DNA of 64,000 nucleotides from assembly GCF_009711415.1 (NCBI RefSeq), contig NZ_SMLZ01000110.1, positions 124,001 through 188,000 on the forward strand. Reading direction: 5' to 3'. Source of the stretch: Roseibium denhamense (GTDB lineage: Bacteria > Pseudomonadota > Alphaproteobacteria > Rhizobiales > Stappiaceae). Below are positions 45,443-52,546 of the stretch, piece by piece; the stretch's first letter is position 1, and each line of letters begins with the position of its first letter. A program made the translations under genes and the position numbers. Below the pieces are notes generated by a model that had not been told where the DNA came from, did no database searches, and saw nothing but the letters and a program-made list of their open reading frames with translations.

Positions 45443-46347
45443 TTATGGGGCCACGGCCGTTTGATCCAGCGCGGCGTAGTAATCTTCCTCCGCTTCAGCC
45501 GGAGGGATGTTTCCTATTGGCTCCAGAAGACGCCGGTGGTTGAACCAGTCGACCCATTGGAGCGTTGCGAACTCGACGGCTTCGAAGTTTCGCCAAGGCC
45601 CACGCCGATGAATGACCTCGGCCTTGTAAAACCCGTTGATCGTTTCTGCGAGCGCGTTGTCATAGGAGTCGCCTACGCTCCCGACCGAGGGGTCGATGCC
45701 TGCTTCTGCCAGCCGCTCGGAATAGCGAATGGACATGTACTGGACACCCCTCTCAGAGTGATGCACAAGGCCACCGCCAGAACGGGACTCCGCTCATGAA
45801 GTGCCTGCTCCAGGGCATCGAGAACGAAGGTGGCATGCGCTGTCCGGCAGACGCGCCAGCCGACGATACGGCGGGCAAATGCATCAATGACGAAGGCGAC
45901 ATAGACGAAGCCCTGCCAGGTGGCAACGTACGTGAAATCCGAAACCCAGAGCCTGTTCGGCACCTGTGCCTTGAACTGGCGGTTCACACGGTCGAGTGGA
46001 CTGGGTGCCGACTTGTCCGCAAACGTCGTTTTGACAGGCTTACCTCGGATGATCCCCTGAAGCCCCATCGCCCTCATGAGCCGGGCCACGGTGCAGCGGG
46101 CAACATCGAAGCCCTCCCGTTGCAATTGCCGCCAGACCTTGCGCACGCCATAGACTCGGAAGTTCTCCTCGAAGACGCCGCGTATCTCTATCTTCAAGGC
46201 GATATCGCGGTGGGCGCGGACTGAAAGCCGGTCCACGTCCTCACGCTTGGCGATGTTCTCGTAATAAGTCGACGGGGCAATCGGCAGAACTCTGCAAATC
46301 GGCTCGACCCCGAACACCGGGCGATGCTCATCGATGAAAGAAATCAT
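45443..46347 (-). pseudogene. IS3-family transposase OrfB, frameshifted
   Basis: The OrfB transposase (DDE-type integrase, about 300 residues when joined) begins [14 protein letters not shown], with an HTH_21-like region and the rve catalytic core. The first Asp is in WVSDFTYVA and the second in the segment at the break; the Glu is in DNALAETINGFY, which lies in another frame. The reading frame breaks near 45,775-45,785, where a one-base loss converts the expected GGGLVHHSERGVQY into an unrelated tail. The ATG overlaps the orfA stop. Unless frameshifted back, the element cannot transpose by itself. Confidence 0.87.
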
Positions 46348-46670
46348 CGCTTCAGTGGGCGGTCGAGCTCCGCCTGGGCAAAATAAGCAGACGCCTTGCG
46401 CAGGATCTCGTTGGCCTGACGAAGCTCACGATTCTCCCGCTCAAGAGCTTTCATCTTCTCGGCTACATCGCTCGGTAGGCCAGCTGGCTTGCCGCTGTCG
46501 ACCTCTGTCTTCTTGACCCATTCATGCAGCGTCGCTGGAGCGCAGCCGATCTTGACCGCGATAGAAGAAACTGCGGCCCACCGGGACGGATGTTCGCCTT
46601 CATGCTCGAGCACCATGCGGATGGCGCGTTCGCGTACCTCAGCTGAAAACTTGTTTGTTGTTTTGCTCAT
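46344..46670 (-). CDS. IS3-family transposase OrfA
   Basis: This 108-residue DNA-binding OrfA has an HTH_Tnp_1 domain ([20 protein letters not shown]...[24 protein letters not shown]) followed by a leucine-zipper-like coiled coil ([26 protein letters not shown]). The stop overlaps the orfB start in an ATGA, and IS3 elements make an OrfAB fusion by -1 frameshifting near here. It starts 24 bp inside the right terminal repeat. Confidence 0.93.
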
Positions 46671-47012: not shown

Positions 47013-49235
47013 TTAGTCACACAGGTTCCGCACAATTGGCGACCCGGGGCCCAGCGCAGTCAGGTAGGCTTTGCGCGCCTCTTCTGCCGTTTGAAACCTG
47101 TTTTCAGCTAGGAAATCTGCAAGGCTGCGGCCAACGATAGGGGCGGACACACTTGTCCCATTCATGATCTGGGTGCTGCCGCTCCGGCCCCCTGTGCCGA
47201 CAAGCCCGGCAAAAACGCGCGAGCGGTCGGAGGCGGCGGAGACATCCTCGCCGGGCATGCCCGCATGCGGCGCGCCCGCATAGACCGCCCGGGATCCGTC
47301 CTTCAGTCTGTAGCCGGACACCCGGATCATGGCGCTGGATGTGGCCAGACCGTTTATCGTGCCGTATTTGGACAGCCCCGCCTCTTCCGGAAGCGGCTGA
47401 ACATGTTCGTTCAATTCGTCCTGGCGCTGTCCCTCAACAGTCCAGGATTGATGCTCAAGATAGGACTGACGCCCCTGGCGCCGGAAGAAGGGTGGGGAAT
47501 CGTCCCGTTGGATCCAGGCCTCCAGAAACTCGCCTTTTGAGAGTTTTGCCGTTACCGACACGTTCCAGGATCCGGGGGGGATGCTGGCCGTCTCGTCGGC
47601 CACCGGACGGGTGGGAGCGAGCGCAATCAAAATGCGCAGTTTTGGATAGGAGTTCGGCAGCGGACCGGAAGCGGGCCCGGACGGCGCATTGGCCGCATCC
47701 AGACAGTCAAAGGTAAGCCGTCCCACAATAGTTCCGGAGCTATCGTGAAGATCCCGGTTTTCGGTTCCATTCAGACTAGCAATGTCGACCGTTTCGGAAA
47801 ACACGGCCTCCTTGTCTCCAAAGGGCGGGGTCAAGGTCAGCGTGACGGGCTGTTTTGCCTTGCCGCGTTTTTTCTGAGCGCCTGCCGGCTTCGGCAGCCA
47901 GATTTCCAGATAGTTTGGCGAGGGGTCCTGCGGCTGTGTAATCCAGTTCAGATTGAGCGTGTGGTCTCCCGCTTTTTCAGCGGCAACATGCGCGTGGCCC
48001 TTGAGCAGAAAGCGGTTTCCAACCGGCATCGGCACAAGCAGCGGCCCGAGATCCGGATCCTTGTCCAGGGTTTCGACCGTTTTTTGCACGAACCGCTCAA
48101 ACAGATGATCGCCATTATGCGGGCCACCGGACAGGCCATAACTGAAATTCATGACCAGAGGGATTTTCTTCCCCCCCGGCTTCCGCAGCTGTTTGGCAAT
48201 GCGCCGCGACCGGTCGACAATGTATTCCAGGCCCAAAATCGCAAACAGCGTGTAGAGCGCGCCTGAACTCTCCCCGGTGACCCTGCGGTTCAGCTGAACA
48301 GAGACAATCCGGCGGTCTTTCGCATCGGCGGTCTGGCGCCCTGCCGGCCGGCCCTGTTCTTCCAGCAGCGGGCCATCATGTCCGAACGGGCTGTGCGAAT
48401 AGCCCGCGAGCGCGTCCAGAACGAATGTCCCATGACTGAATGCCTTGCTCAAGGTCGTCGGTTCAGACCTGGTCGGGTCCACCAGACCGAGGGCGCGCAG
48501 GGTCTTTTCCTCACTGTCAAACTGTGCCAGTACCCCTTTGATTTGGCTGGCCGTGAGTTCCTGTCCGAACAGCACAGAGGACGCCCGGCGCCCGTCCGGG
48601 CTCAATCGTCCATCTTGGATCCAGGCACAGTCGACCCGCGGGTTGCCATCAGCATCTATGAAATGCTCGTGGGCGATGTTAATGCCATCATCAATGATGC
48701 CCACAATCACAGCCTTGGCAGGATTTATCCCGAGCGAGGACATGTCGTCCAACTGCGGCTCGTACAACTCCTCCGGGATCATGGCATCATCGAGCGGCGC
48801 AAGCTGGGCATAGACTTCATCTGCCATGCGCCCTGTTGGCGCATCCGCCTGCGCATCCACCTTCGCATGGTCTGAGCTGTCCTTGGCCGTAGGCTCTGAG
48901 GGGTGTGTAGCCGCCGCAGTTTCCGGACCGGACTGGCATAACTCACCGGCCATTCCCCCAAAGTCCTTGCAGGTCAACAAGAACGCGTATTCAGAGCCTT
49001 CCGGTTTCCAGACGAGGTTATGGGCATCGATCCGGTTCAGACCATACCCGCCCTGTTTCCGGCCCGCCTTTTTCTCCGGTTCTTTGAGGAGAACCAGAAA
49101 CCAATGATTATCCGCGCAGTTTTCCATTTGCCCGGCGTCCAGGCAGTTCGGCGCGGTGTCGATCAACCACCTTGTGTAAGGATCAACGGTGTGTGGCCAG
49201 GCTTTGGCCGGTTTCCATGCATAAGGTCCCGACAT
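47013..49235 (-). CDS. Subtilisin-like serine protease (peptidase S8)
   Basis: This 740-residue S8 peptidase has the catalytic triad D182 (VGIIDDGINIAHEH), H268 (AFSHGTFVLDALAG) and S695 (NGTSVSAPIVG). No signal peptide or membrane helix is visible in the N-terminal 170 residues. About 420 residues separate His and Ser, so there is a large insertion with a beta-rich region (about 410-610), as in some conflict-related or multi-domain subtilases. It lies 19 bp after the PAP2 gene stop in the same operon. The target is unknown. An upstream extension in the same frame into the PAP2 gene is rejected. Confidence 0.9.
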   Translation of the reverse strand: MSGPYAWKPAKAWPHTVDPYTRWLIDTAPNCLDAGQMENCADNHWFLVLLKEPEKKAGRKQGGYGLNRIDAHNLVWKPEGSEYAFLLTCKDFGGMAGELCQSGPETAAATHPSEPTAKDSSDHAKVDAQADAPTGRMADEVYAQLAPLDDAMIPEELYEPQLDDMSSLGINPAKAVIVGIIDDGINIAHEHFIDADGNPRVDCAWIQDGRLSPDGRRASSVLFGQELTASQIKGVLAQFDSEEKTLRALGLVDPTRSEPTTLSKAFSHGTFVLDALAGYSHSPFGHDGPLLEEQGRPAGRQTADAKDRRIVSVQLNRRVTGESSGALYTLFAILGLEYIVDRSRRIAKQLRKPGGKKIPLVMNFSYGLSGGPHNGDHLFERFVQKTVETLDKDPDLGPLLVPMPVGNRFLLKGHAHVAAEKAGDHTLNLNWITQPQDPSPNYLEIWLPKPAGAQKKRGKAKQPVTLTLTPPFGDKEAVFSETVDIASLNGTENRDLHDSSGTIVGRLTFDCLDAANAPSGPASGPLPNSYPKLRILIALAPTRPVADETASIPPGSWNVSVTAKLSKGEFLEAWIQRDDSPPFFRRQGRQSYLEHQSWTVEGQRQDELNEHVQPLPEEAGLSKYGTINGLATSSAMIRVSGYRLKDGSRAVYAGAPHAGMPGEDVSAASDRSRVFAGLVGTGGRSGSTQIMNGTSVSAPIVGRSLADFLAENRFQTAEEARKAYLTALGPGSPIVRNLCD

Positions 49236-49254
49236 AATGACACCATGCCTCCGC

Positions 49255-50478
49255 TTACTTCCACTCGTCTTTGGCCAGCTTCCAGAGATGCCCCAGCTGC
49301 GGTATCGCGTGATTAACGGAAACAAGATCGTTACCAAGGGTCACGAGGTTCCCGGTCTGACGGGAGCCGTTCTTGTAATAGTCGCGAATGTAAAAGTCGG
49401 TTGTTGAGGCGCGTTTCAATTCTGCCTCACAGTCTTCACCGGACTTGGCGGCGTCGAATACAAATGGCTTGATCGAGGTCGGGTTTCCGGCGGACGATTG
49501 GGCGCGAGCCTCAAAATATTCGGCTATGCAAAGGCCGAGTGCGGCGCCGGAAATACTGTCGGCTGGAAAATGAAGACCGGCAACCGTCCGGTTGACGGCA
49601 ACCCGTTCCGCCTGAAGCATCATCATCCTTTCATACCGGTTCTCGTTGGACGACGATGCTGGTTGATTGCCCGAGATTTTGGCGAGCATGAGAGCCATGG
49701 CCGCGGCTTCTGTCGCGTGCCCGGACGGCAAGGCCCCATGACCGGGCATCGGAATGGCAGGCTGCACAGACGCGGAATAAAGATCCGGCCGTTTGCAGGC
49801 CAGCGCCATTTTGACGTTCTGGACCACAGCAGTTGCGAACCGCTGGGCAATTCCCATCAGCTCCAGCGTATAGCGGGTACGGTCCGGATGAAGGGAGACA
49901 ATGATACCGAAATAGTGATCGGGATAGCCTGTCTGATTGACGATTTCGGCAAGACGGTCCACCCGCAGATCCGCATAGGACAGGACGAGGTTCATCTGGC
50001 CTTCGAAAAACGTTTCGCTGGGCCGCTTGATGGTTGCAAGAGTCTTGACCGCACCGGCCTGCGCGTTGGTGCGTTCTTCATCGCGGTGGGCAATCTGGAC
50101 GGCAACGGCCCCATCCGTCGAGATCCGCAAACCGCTCATCAATTCGCCATGAATAACCATGGCGCGCGCCCAGTCCGGCCACCGGGTTGTGTCCTTGGGG
50201 TCTTCGAAGCCTAGATGGGAAACGGACTGAATGTCCCAGCTTGAGCGCGGCCCCACGATAGCGTCGCGGGCATTGACGATGCTCTGCGCCATGAAGCCGG
50301 AGAACTGACGGCCGCCGGCTCCGCTTGCCCCGGAGGCCCCTGACGCGCCACTGGCACCAGATGCACCGCTGGCACCCGAGGCGCCACTCGCGCCCGATGC
50401 ACCACTTGCCCCGGATGCGCTACTGGCACCACTTGCACCAGAGGCGCCGCTCACGAAACCTTCAAATGCCATACCCAC
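49255..50478 (-). CDS. PAP2/vanadium-haloperoxidase-fold protein with N-terminal Gly-Ala-Ser repeat
   Basis: The 407-residue protein starts with MGMAFEGFVS, then fifteen Gly-Ala-Ser-type triplets (residues 11-55; one SAS, last GAG). A helical PAP2/haloperoxidase domain follows with the three phosphate or vanadate-binding motifs: K-x6-R-P (KMALACKRP), PSGH (LPSGHATEAA) and a variant third motif NR-x5-H-x3-D (NRTVAGLHFPAD). It has no signal peptide, so it resembles cytoplasmic or self-assembling vanadium-dependent haloperoxidase relatives rather than a membrane phosphatase. It lies between the SARP-like gene (15 bp gap) and the subtilase gene. Confidence 0.87.
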   Translation of the reverse strand: MGMAFEGFVSGASGASGASSASGASGASGASGASGASGASGASGASGASGASGAGGRQFSGFMAQSIVNARDAIVGPRSSWDIQSVSHLGFEDPKDTTRWPDWARAMVIHGELMSGLRISTDGAVAVQIAHRDEERTNAQAGAVKTLATIKRPSETFFEGQMNLVLSYADLRVDRLAEIVNQTGYPDHYFGIIVSLHPDRTRYTLELMGIAQRFATAVVQNVKMALACKRPDLYSASVQPAIPMPGHGALPSGHATEAAAMALMLAKISGNQPASSSNENRYERMMMLQAERVAVNRTVAGLHFPADSISGAALGLCIAEYFEARAQSSAGNPTSIKPFVFDAAKSGEDCEAELKRASTTDFYIRDYYKNGSRQTGNLVTLGNDLVSVNHAIPQLGHLWKLAKDEWK

Positions 50479-50493
50479 CTCCTGAAAATAATA

Positions 50494-52200
50494 CTAACGT
50501 CTTGGAATTCCGCTACTCTCAAGTGCTTGAGCCCATTCCTGCCCAATCTCCAGTTCCGCAGCCGGGTGCGCCGAGAGGTAATTTTCGATTGTGTATTTGG
50601 GGTACATCTGCAACATCTCACGCGCTGTGGCACGGGCGCTGTCAAAGCGGTTCAATCCGTTCAGAGCAATTATTTTGGCCCGAATTGCAGAAGCGTGATG
50701 GCGGTTCAAAGAAAGAGACTCGTTAGCCAGATCCAGCGCGCTTTGAAAATTTCTGCCGGACAAATGCGCGGTGGCTGACAGGTTTTTGTAAAGATACCCG
50801 CCTGGATCAAGCGGGGTCAGCCGCCGGCCGCAATCGGTATATGCAATGGCCTGCTGGCCGTCGCCCTCAAAGGCGTATTTGATCCCTTTCCAATACCAGG
50901 CCACCGCATTGTTTTCATTTTCCGCCAGCACTTTTTCGAAAGTGACAGAAGCGCCTTCATAATCCCGTTCCAACTGGTAGGAGACGACGCCGTCCATGAC
51001 CTGGGAAAAGCTGCAATCCGGATCGGACTCAAGCGCCCGGGACACCATATCCCGCGCGGCCAGCTTTTCGTCTTCGATATTCGTTCCCCACCCCTGCGCC
51101 AGGAACAATACATACCATTGGGCAAGCCATGCATATGCAAGCGACGATGGGCCCCTTTGATCCAGAATGCTCTCCAGAAACTTGTGCGAGCGCAGCACAC
51201 TTGCCAGATCCTGCCGGTGCATGAGTGCAATCGCCGACATCAGCAGCGAGTGGGAGGCAACGTCTTCGGTATTTTTCGTGCGGATATCCCGCAACGCTCC
51301 TTTAAAGAGGGAATCAACGATGTAGTTGGCGATTTCCTGCAGGATATCCGCGCTTCCCCTCAGCCAGTCCTTGCTGGACCGGGAAAAGCGTTTCGTATTC
51401 ACGATCATGCCGGAAGCGCTGTCGGTGAACTCGATATCCAGCGTCATCTGGCCGCGCGCATCCCGAAGAAATCCGGTGGCAACGTAGTCAACGCCGTAAA
51501 GCGTGTTCAACCGCTCCAAATCGGCATTCAGGAAGCCCGTTGAGCGGCAGGACAAGTGGGAAATCACATCGATTCCGTGCGCCCGCGCAATCATGCGTGA
51601 TAGATCGCCGGCAATCATATCGCCGAAAACCGGATCGATCTGATCACTGGTTGCATGGGAGAACGGCAAGATAGCAATCGCCGGCCGGAGCTTTGTAAAC
51701 CGCTGCACCTTTTCAGACGCAGCTTCCGGCTGCGGGACAGGCGATGCCGGCAGCGTCCGGAAATTTGATCTGATGTCGCTGTCGAGACCCGCCACGATCC
51801 TCCGGCGCTGGTCTTTCAGCCAAGCCTCAAAGCCATCCGCACCGGCAGGATTGAGACCTTCCAGCAGGACACCTTCATGCGGAGACCCGACAAAGCTGAC
51901 CAGGTCCAGGTTCAGCCAGATTTCCTGATTGTTTGCACCGAGTATGGAAACGTGTTTTGGGCCAAGCGTCCGCTTGAGCCCGGCCAATGACTGGCGAAGA
52001 CTGGCCCGGCCATGCTGCCAACCGGACCTTGGCCACAGCATGTCCTGAAGCCAGGAGCGTGTCCGCCGCCCGTTTGGGGCAGACGCAAGCAACGCCACCA
52101 TCGCGGCCGTCTTGCCAGTAAGCGGGAACACGTCTCCTGTCTCAGAATCTGAGCAGGTAAATGTTCCATACATTCTGATGAACACCGACGCATCGGCCAA
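50494..52200 (-). CDS. SARP-like transcriptional regulator with TolB-like and TPR regions
   Basis: This 568-residue protein starts with a winged-helix DNA-binding region like those of SARP/OmpR regulators (residues about 8-95: LTGKTAAMVALLASAP...WLQDMLWPRSGWQHGRASLRQSLAGLKRTLG), then a bacterial transcriptional-activation-like stretch. A middle region (about 170-310) resembles the TolB-like domain often found with adenylate-cyclase-type regulators (AILPFSHATSDQ...FGDMIAGDLSRMIAR). TPR-like helical repeats fill the C-terminal half. It is the first gene of the leftward cassette and may control it. Its trigger is unknown. Confidence 0.85.
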   Translation of the reverse strand: MADASVFIRMYGTFTCSDSETGDVFPLTGKTAAMVALLASAPNGRRTRSWLQDMLWPRSGWQHGRASLRQSLAGLKRTLGPKHVSILGANNQEIWLNLDLVSFVGSPHEGVLLEGLNPAGADGFEAWLKDQRRRIVAGLDSDIRSNFRTLPASPVPQPEAASEKVQRFTKLRPAIAILPFSHATSDQIDPVFGDMIAGDLSRMIARAHGIDVISHLSCRSTGFLNADLERLNTLYGVDYVATGFLRDARGQMTLDIEFTDSASGMIVNTKRFSRSSKDWLRGSADILQEIANYIVDSLFKGALRDIRTKNTEDVASHSLLMSAIALMHRQDLASVLRSHKFLESILDQRGPSSLAYAWLAQWYVLFLAQGWGTNIEDEKLAARDMVSRALESDPDCSFSQVMDGVVSYQLERDYEGASVTFEKVLAENENNAVAWYWKGIKYAFEGDGQQAIAYTDCGRRLTPLDPGGYLYKNLSATAHLSGRNFQSALDLANESLSLNRHHASAIRAKIIALNGLNRFDSARATAREMLQMYPKYTIENYLSAHPAAELEIGQEWAQALESSGIPRR

Positions 52201-52342: not shown

Positions 52343-52546
52343 ATGCCACAAGAGGCCACTGTGATCAGAATTGGTGATACGTATATCGAAATAAAAAGTC
52401 TTGTAGATCTACACAAACACTGGCCGGAAGTAAGTGCTCGCGTAAACAAAGCAATCGAAGAAGGAGAAGTGGAAGATCAGAACTTATGTAAAATCATTGA
52501 ATGGCTTGTCATTCTGGGCGATAAGACCCTGTTTCAATCTCAATAA
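52343..52546 (+). CDS. Small hypothetical protein
   Basis: This 67-residue acidic protein (MPQEATVIRIGDTYIEIKSL...) is not a family I recognise. It is predicted alpha/beta with no signal or membrane segment. The ATG is preceded by GGGGAG seven bases ahead, a strong ribosome site, and the codons are in good alphaproteobacterial use except for a slightly AT-rich 3' part. It is divergent from the SARP-like gene across an AT-rich 140-bp promoter region, so the two may share regulation. Confidence 0.65.
   Translation: MPQEATVIRIGDTYIEIKSLVDLHKHWPEVSARVNKAIEEGEVEDQNLCKIIEWLVILGDKTLFQSQ

Follow-up and report, generated by a model that had tools for sequence, protein, structure and literature searches.

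What kind of system is formed by three leftward genes at positions 47013-52200 of the stretch of DNA analysed here, a 64,000-nucleotide segment of the Roseibium denhamense genome (contig NZ_SMLZ01000110.1, positions 124,001 to 188,000; hereafter the window)? The genes, present as an initial annotation had claimed, encode a tetratricopeptide repeat (TPR) regulator, a PAP2-fold enzyme and a subtilisin-like protease of family S8. They occur together at all 20 loci found in genomes of the genus and far beyond it, and the trio is a real, conserved module. Its enzyme carries an N-terminal head in which a short peptide word is repeated over scrambled codons, and a protease is kept beside the enzyme while the protease family changes. 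The compact cassette with a layout of sensor, enzyme and protease, which had been suggested from the window, holds more strongly than was guessed, and a missing S8 protease is usually replaced by another protease.

Among 61 genomes, 37 of them from the window's genus, relatives of the PAP2 enzyme (E ≤ 1e-30) and of the S8 protease (E ≤ 1e-26) pinpointed the identical 20 loci in 16 of the 37 genus genomes, four of which carry two of these loci; rows weaker than 1e-12 were left out of the genus-level PAP2 search. The regulator gene lies upstream and in the same direction in 18 of the 20 loci, and is divergent and present in L087 and L088. A further module member (L275, in genome G011) was found after these 20. 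Seven additional S8 loci were detected at E ≤ 1e-100 in a search of 385 genomes of the class, from which 13 rows weaker than 1e-15 were left out, and all seven adjoin a PAP2 gene; two weaker S8 matches do not. At E ≤ 1e-15, PAP2 relatives were present in 19 of 398 genomes sampled across the phylum, in 39/120 genomes of one family (with 3 of the 47 match rows, G864 C35, G914 and G821, left out), and in 8/129 and 18/130 genomes of two more families, the latter outside the class. Marine and soil bacteria carry the module, which is also present elsewhere in the Alpha- and Betaproteobacteria and on plasmids: a plasmid protein search yielded 35 records with PAP2 relatives, including 21 from Phaeobacter, one from Caballeronia and one from Paraburkholderia, and 11 of the 35 are predicted to be conjugative. 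Two plasmid copies of the cassette, L178 (Parasedimentitalea) and L258 (P. inhibens M647), look broken in the annotation, with short or split genes.

Carriage by phages was rejected, as the INPHARED phage records gave no match to the PAP2 enzyme at E 1e-5; viral contigs contained 14 weak PAP2 matches (23-39% identity). Four loci with S8 relatives (L136, L137, L145 and L146; E 1e-6 to 1e-35) were also rejected as module members, because the PAP2 gene is absent. At 8478-11748 of L136, the distant S8 relative stands beside an open reading frame (ORF) with a radical-SAM-like CxxxCxxC motif, as judged by eye.

Two collections of loci were compared: a first set of 96 PAP2 loci (the window, 19 from the genus, 15 from the class search, 8 from named plasmids and 53 from the phylum and family searches), which includes some paralogues and near-identical relatives and in which open frames were read from stop to stop, and a later sample of 23 previously unseen loci from the searches of 129 and 130 genomes. 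The head of the window enzyme had been described as low-complexity; the head exists, and it is really a tripeptide repeat, with ASG occurring 11 times without a break (50320-50418) after one Gly-to-Ser exception. Heads were scored by an exact tandem run of 15 or more residues ahead of the PAP2 core, and words were counted after collapsing rotations. Such a run was found in 91 of the 96 heads, with a period of 3 in 78, of 4 in nine and of 2 in four, and the 91 heads use 55 words. The word is GAS in the window and GTS in its nearest relative, and elsewhere includes GGI, NSF, NAE, TGW, GKM and NR, so that its chemistry ranges from hydrophobic (GGI) and aromatic (TGW) to acidic (GHE) and basic (NR). 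The five heads without an exact run carry short or mixed repeats (L087, L088, L147, L179 and L183); that of L179, with three copies of NAH and then four of TAQ, looks like a word change caught midway. In the later sample, 18/23 heads have an exact run (15 with period 3, two with period 4 and one with period 6). Taking all sets together, exact runs are present in 110 of 120 loci, with 66 words, a count that includes the 13-residue Met-Thr run of L275, which lies below the 15-residue floor.

The word changes rapidly between relatives. It was the same in 6/6 pairs with at least 95% core identity, in 1/4 pairs at 85-95%, 5/7 at 75-85%, 11/38 at 65-75%, 5/32 at 55-65% and 21/227 at 45-55%. On a tree of the 96 cores, of a quick type with 36 of its 93 inner branches starred, the 91 labelled heads require at least 63 word changes, together with 5 changes of period and 4 of protease group. 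Seven Phaeobacter loci share the word NSF. The repeat head was rejected as a general feature of the region, because such runs are all but absent from the remaining open frames of these loci: only two unrelated frames have a run of at least 18 residues in five or more copies, namely one of L207 with 17 copies of DPV and one of L088 that encodes an RTX-like protein and whose units take 2 distinct forms as DNA. Two genus matches to the head only (L024 and L025) were imperfect Gly/Ser-rich stretches and were not retained. A collagen or polyglycine helix was also rejected: the collagen family PF01391 scored 26.5 bits on the window head, below its cut-off of 27.2, and many words lack the required glycine spacing (NSF and NAE are Gly-free, and periods 2 and 4 occur). 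Release of tripeptides by a tripeptidyl-peptidase-like S8 enzyme was discarded once periods 2 and 4 had been found.

Units that are alike as peptide are unlike as DNA. All 11 units of the window run differ in nucleotide sequence, and codon identity among units of this head is 0.21, compared with 0.28 for random codons. Over the 91 heads, median within-head codon identity was 0.35, against 0.42 expected when codons were drawn at random from neighbouring genes; 85 heads had a codon-identity z below 2 and one had a z above 4. Neighbouring units share 691 of 2320 codons, compared with 873.2 (standard deviation 19.6) in column shuffles (z -9.3), and none of 500 shuffles was as low. Of the 762 pairs of neighbouring units, 32 have the same DNA sequence, and 9 of the 23 serine-containing heads mix the TCN and AGY codon families. 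The core genes of these loci, used as a control at a three-codon spacing, showed no avoidance (3432/8624 against 3356, ratio 1.02). The scrambled codons, the neighbour avoidance and the core-gene control led to the rejection of a DNA microsatellite or phase variation for most heads. From the scrambling and the avoidance we infer that selection maintains the peptide repeat and that repetitiveness at the DNA level is either disfavoured by selection or lost.

A protease was found within 3.5 kb of the PAP2 gene in 94 of the 96 loci, using protease and regulator profiles built from the loci themselves. Five groups are represented: 80 loci have a CspB-like S8a protease, four have S8b (L230-L232, plus L233 by profile), three have S8c (L140, with L143 and L215 by homology), five have an A4 peptidase (L138, L141, L142 and L144 by Pfam, L139 by profile) and two have a papain-like C1 peptidase (L216, and L234 just below the Pfam cut-off). 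An S8b protease is also present in L275. The A4 peptidases are rare: of 190 genomes sampled from the class, three have one, and each of these three genes adjoins the PAP2 gene of the module. In 78 loci the protease gene is found downstream and on the same strand, in 12 downstream and on the other strand, and in four elsewhere. In the later sample, a protease lies no farther than about 1.5 kb away in 18/23 loci (17 S8 and one A4); with an exact head run likewise in 18/23, the rule is strong and not universal. The presence of five protease groups behind one enzyme family argues that proteolysis itself, and not one particular protease, is the conserved function.

The window protease scored 24.6 bits against PF00082 (cut-off 21.8), a match that covers only the stretch around the serine, and it has the Asp-His-Ser triad and the oxyanion Asn. 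In 68 aligned sequences, His268, Asn407 and Ser695 are invariant, and Asp182 (codon 48690-48692) is conserved in at least 90%. Its structural model (predicted local distance difference test, pLDDT, 80) matched CspB (4i0w_B of structure 4i0w) in Foldseek with E 3.3e-20, the fold agreeing along the greater part of the protein; 11 of the 12 matches at E ≤ 0.001 were clostridial Csp chains, and the twelfth was the streptococcal serine protease 5xya.

The PAP2-fold enzyme and the 740-residue S8 protease had both been proposed from the window, and both score above their Pfam cut-offs with intact catalytic residues. For the former, PF01569 gave 41.3 bits (cut-off 27.2), and the protein carries K-x6-RP, PS[GA]H and R-x5-H-x3-D, which we take to be the active-site motifs of the PAP2 superfamily. 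K223, R230, H254, R297, H303 and D307 (numbered from GTG 50478) are invariant among the 70 of 96 loci that were aligned. The AlphaFold model (pLDDT 84) has a well-folded core and a head predicted to be disordered (pLDDT below 50 for residues 1-54). Its best fold match was PhoN (2akc_A, Z 18.3), followed by 7f17 (Z 18.2); Z values to class A acid phosphatases were 15.8-18.3 over 195-201 residues, and those to haloperoxidases were at most 13.9. By its residues and predicted fold, the protein is a soluble enzyme of the PAP2 fold, and its active site is intact in the aligned members.

The regulator had been called a SARP/TPR protein. Its TPR part, which is C-terminal, is recognised by Pfam; the SARP label comes from relatives, as no SARP-type domain (BTAD or Trans_reg_C) was scored by Pfam in the window protein. 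Relative L234 matched BTAD (4.9e-12) and Trans_reg_C (0.0029), L087 matched Trans_reg_C (8.4e-5), and annotated relatives are named SARP or winged-helix, suggesting by homology a SARP-like N-terminus in the window protein. A nucleotide cyclase domain takes the place of this N-terminus in some loci (Guanylate_cyc in L138 and L141). A match to the regulator family lies within 500 bp of the PAP2 gene in 93 of the 96 loci and within 3 kb in all of them, nearness being judged by distance and not against a chance count in a large family with several candidates per genome; in the later sample it was found in 22/23 loci.

The features of the window cassette are listed in the table below.

Features of the cassette in the window (positions from the first nucleotide of the window).
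Feature	Position	Strand	Description
Regulator	50494..52200	-	568 aa, TTG start; TPR families in Pfam
PAP2-fold enzyme	49255..50472	-	405 aa from ATG 50472; PF01569
PAP2 repeat head	50314..50451	-	word Gly-Ala-Ser, one broken unit
S8 protease, CspA/B/C type with insert	47013..49235	-	740 aa; PF00082
Small divergent ORF upstream of the regulator, doubtful member	52343..52546	+	67 aa

The PAP2 frame was first read as 49255-50478, from GTG 50478; ATG 50472 is the most likely start judging by the sequence, because AGGAGG precedes it. Of the 15-19 bp gaps claimed for the cassette, the 19 bp between the PAP2 and S8 genes stand, and with this start the 15 bp between the regulator and PAP2 genes become 21 bp. 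The three proteins, said to have no signal peptide, indeed lack a hydrophobic N-terminal stretch (top 19-residue Kyte-Doolittle mean 1.25), and no NCBIfam model scored above its cut-off for any of them. Of the named relatives of the locus, that in Roseibium sp. MMSF_3544 is the nearest (PAP2 identity 86%). The small divergent ORF has a 67% identical counterpart in the nearest relative, L070, and none at E 0.01 in the other loci collected. Directly downstream of the S8 gene, two ORFs on the minus strand (45443-46670) resemble an IS3-type transposase pair, as judged by eye.

Some copies have peroxidase genes in their flanks. A haem peroxidase was recognised in L087 (11987-13855; An_peroxidase in Pfam), and relatives of it were found by BLAST or profile in L189 (2095-3681), L190 (1525-3366), L231 (8447-10285) and beside L275 (G011:C1:369828). 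Regulator relatives also lie near haem peroxidases in four loci without a module PAP2 gene (L265, L268, L272 and L277). In L192, a homologue of true vanadium bromoperoxidases (777-2969; E 1e-108 to 5lpc) flanks the cassette, with relatives in L202 and L203. By raw count, relatives of one RTX-repeat protein, that of L088 (HemolysinCabind in Pfam), occur within about 9 kb of the cassette in seven loci (L088, L131, L133, L134, L184, L212 and L234), and a SIR2 gene is near the Paracoccus copy.

The explanation that we put forward, tentatively and as a possibility, is that the module encodes a PAP2 effector under the control of the regulator, whose head makes it assemble with itself or tethers it and which the protease gates. 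A signal would cause the regulator to switch the cluster on; the identical, register-free repeats on many enzyme copies could then drive self-assembly into a condensate or polymer, which would hold the enzyme inactive or at one place. The protease would cut the enzyme free of its head, or gate it in some other way, and the freed phosphatase- or haloperoxidase-type enzyme would be the output. The strongest argument for like-with-like assembly is that composition is free and unit identity is kept, which points to unit-to-unit matching and not to one chemistry; gating by proteolysis is suggested because the protease is replaceable. A stricter proposal, which we regard as rather unlikely, is that the head is a private self-recognition code, in which only chains with the same lineage-specific word of 2-4 residues would assemble, and the interchangeable protease would open or close the assembly; selection would then keep the units identical as peptide and drive the codons apart as DNA.

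Several observations weigh against the gated, self-assembling effector. No protease was found near the PAP2 gene in L147 and L213 of the first set, nor within about 1.5 kb in 5/23 later loci, at least one of which (L293) is on a short contig. The opposite strand carries the protease gene in 15 of the 94 loci that have one, and the regulator gene in 32 of 96, so that co-transcription is not general. The repeats can be imperfect, with broken units in the window, L071, L183, L184, L196, L219 and L225, and copy number is tolerant, with 6 copies of NSF in five Phaeobacter loci, 5 in one and 7 in one. In 5/23 later loci there is no exact run (L294 and L300 are irregular, and L302, L303 and L305 have none in the part read). 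Six of the 91 heads have codons more alike than random (z ≥ 2), and L290 and L297 of the later sample have just 2 DNA forms among 8 units, so that a new word may start as an expansion of the DNA and have its codons scrambled afterwards. The association of protease group with repeat period (S8b with period 2 in 4/4 loci, C1 with period 4 in 2/2) rests on single clades.

That association, seen in the distant clades and also in L275 with its S8b protease and Met-Thr run, is what would be expected if the head were a fuse, namely a many-fold cleavage site for the neighbouring protease, whose cut activates or releases the enzyme without any self-assembly and whose specificity the word follows. The proximity of a protease despite its differing class, and a head predicted to be disordered and hence cuttable, fit this idea as well. 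With redundant sites, the individual units should be under relaxed selection, yet most of them stay identical; the word also differs where the proteases are alike (GGI and GGV, with 93% core and 88% S8 identity), and L294 and L300 have an S8 protease without an exact run. We consider the fuse an unlikely explanation. If the head were instead an inert spacer born by slippage, in an ordinary stress or oxidant operon with a haloperoxidase-like enzyme, a regulator and an unrelated protease, the variable copy number, the heads that are young at the DNA level (L290 and L297) and the haem peroxidase or vanadium bromoperoxidase genes flanking a few copies would be accounted for. But slippage alone yields like codons, not scrambled ones with neighbour avoidance, and a spacer should drift: L072 and L074, whose runs are exact by way of their selection, keep GSL runs of 38 residues, with 36 synonymous and 9 non-synonymous codon differences between their cores. 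The spacer is distinctly unlikely.

The patchy distribution within the genus, with two loci in some genomes, the plasmid-borne and partly conjugative PAP2 relatives and the copies that look broken in some strains would suit a system for defence against phages or for conflict between bacteria, with the enzyme as killer and the regulator and protease as its trigger; a stress-response or conflict role had been suggested from the window as speculation. Against this, the window trio gave a single weak match in PADLOC-DB 2.0.0, to a subtilase model (E 0.0046), and clustering of 715 flanking ORFs, in flanks that had no defence scan, yielded no general extra gene, by which a shared fourth gene was rejected; we consider a conflict role quite improbable. 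Very improbable, in our view, is that the word is a ligand or signal, a private peptide code that the neighbouring regulator would read from short head peptides through its TPR domain. The constant company of a TPR-type regulator agrees with such a code, as does the fast turnover of words, but the window head protein has no hydrophobic N-terminus, periods of 2, 3 and 4 suit no single peptide receptor, and the word of L077 differs from those of L083 and L081, whose regulators share about 93% identity with that of L077.

Recognition of the module would give a shared meaning to neighbourhoods of 'PAP2', 'S8 peptidase' and 'winged helix protein' genes that are now annotated apart. With 66 words in 110 heads, it offers a natural case of self-similarity that is kept where the sequence itself hardly matters, and exchanging heads makes the role of a low-complexity repeat directly testable, with the enzyme as read-out.

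The module is apparently undescribed: no description of it was found in titles and abstract openings among the literature matches listed, and in the main text of PMC7159879 a term search found none of PAP2, haloperoxidase, subtilase and BTAD. Its component families are established ones; the module and its hyperdiverse, internally uniform repeat head appear to fit no known kind that can be named or tested. The closest likenesses are to individual parts. Class A acid phosphatases (PhoN, PhoC and the Pseudomonas enzyme 7f17) have the fold and catalytic residues of the window enzyme, which differs from them in its repeat head, its lack of a hydrophobic N-terminus and its coupling to a protease and a TPR regulator. 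Vanadium-dependent haloperoxidases have the superfamily and residues in common with it (Z up to about 14), but its best fold matches are phosphatases. The clostridial proteases CspA, CspB and CspC are the nearest solved structures to the window protease by sequence and fold; unlike them, it has a long N-terminal part and a PAP2 partner, and its family was not found here in spore formers. Bacteria such as Roseibium are not known to form spores.

RRNPP-type systems sense peptides with TPR receptors, and they resemble the module in placing a TPR regulator beside a gene with a lineage-specific peptide word. In contrast to them, the module has no sign of a secreted precursor and its words are 2 to 4 residues long; an export signal, as expected of a tandem peptide-pheromone precursor, was not found on the window PAP2 protein, which has no hydrophobic N-terminus. 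The last comparison is with DRT2 phage defence, for which PMC12039810 describes a repetitive toxic protein made via reverse transcription on infection. A repetitive protein is the effector element there, as in the module; the repeat of the module differs in being encoded, with its codons scrambled.

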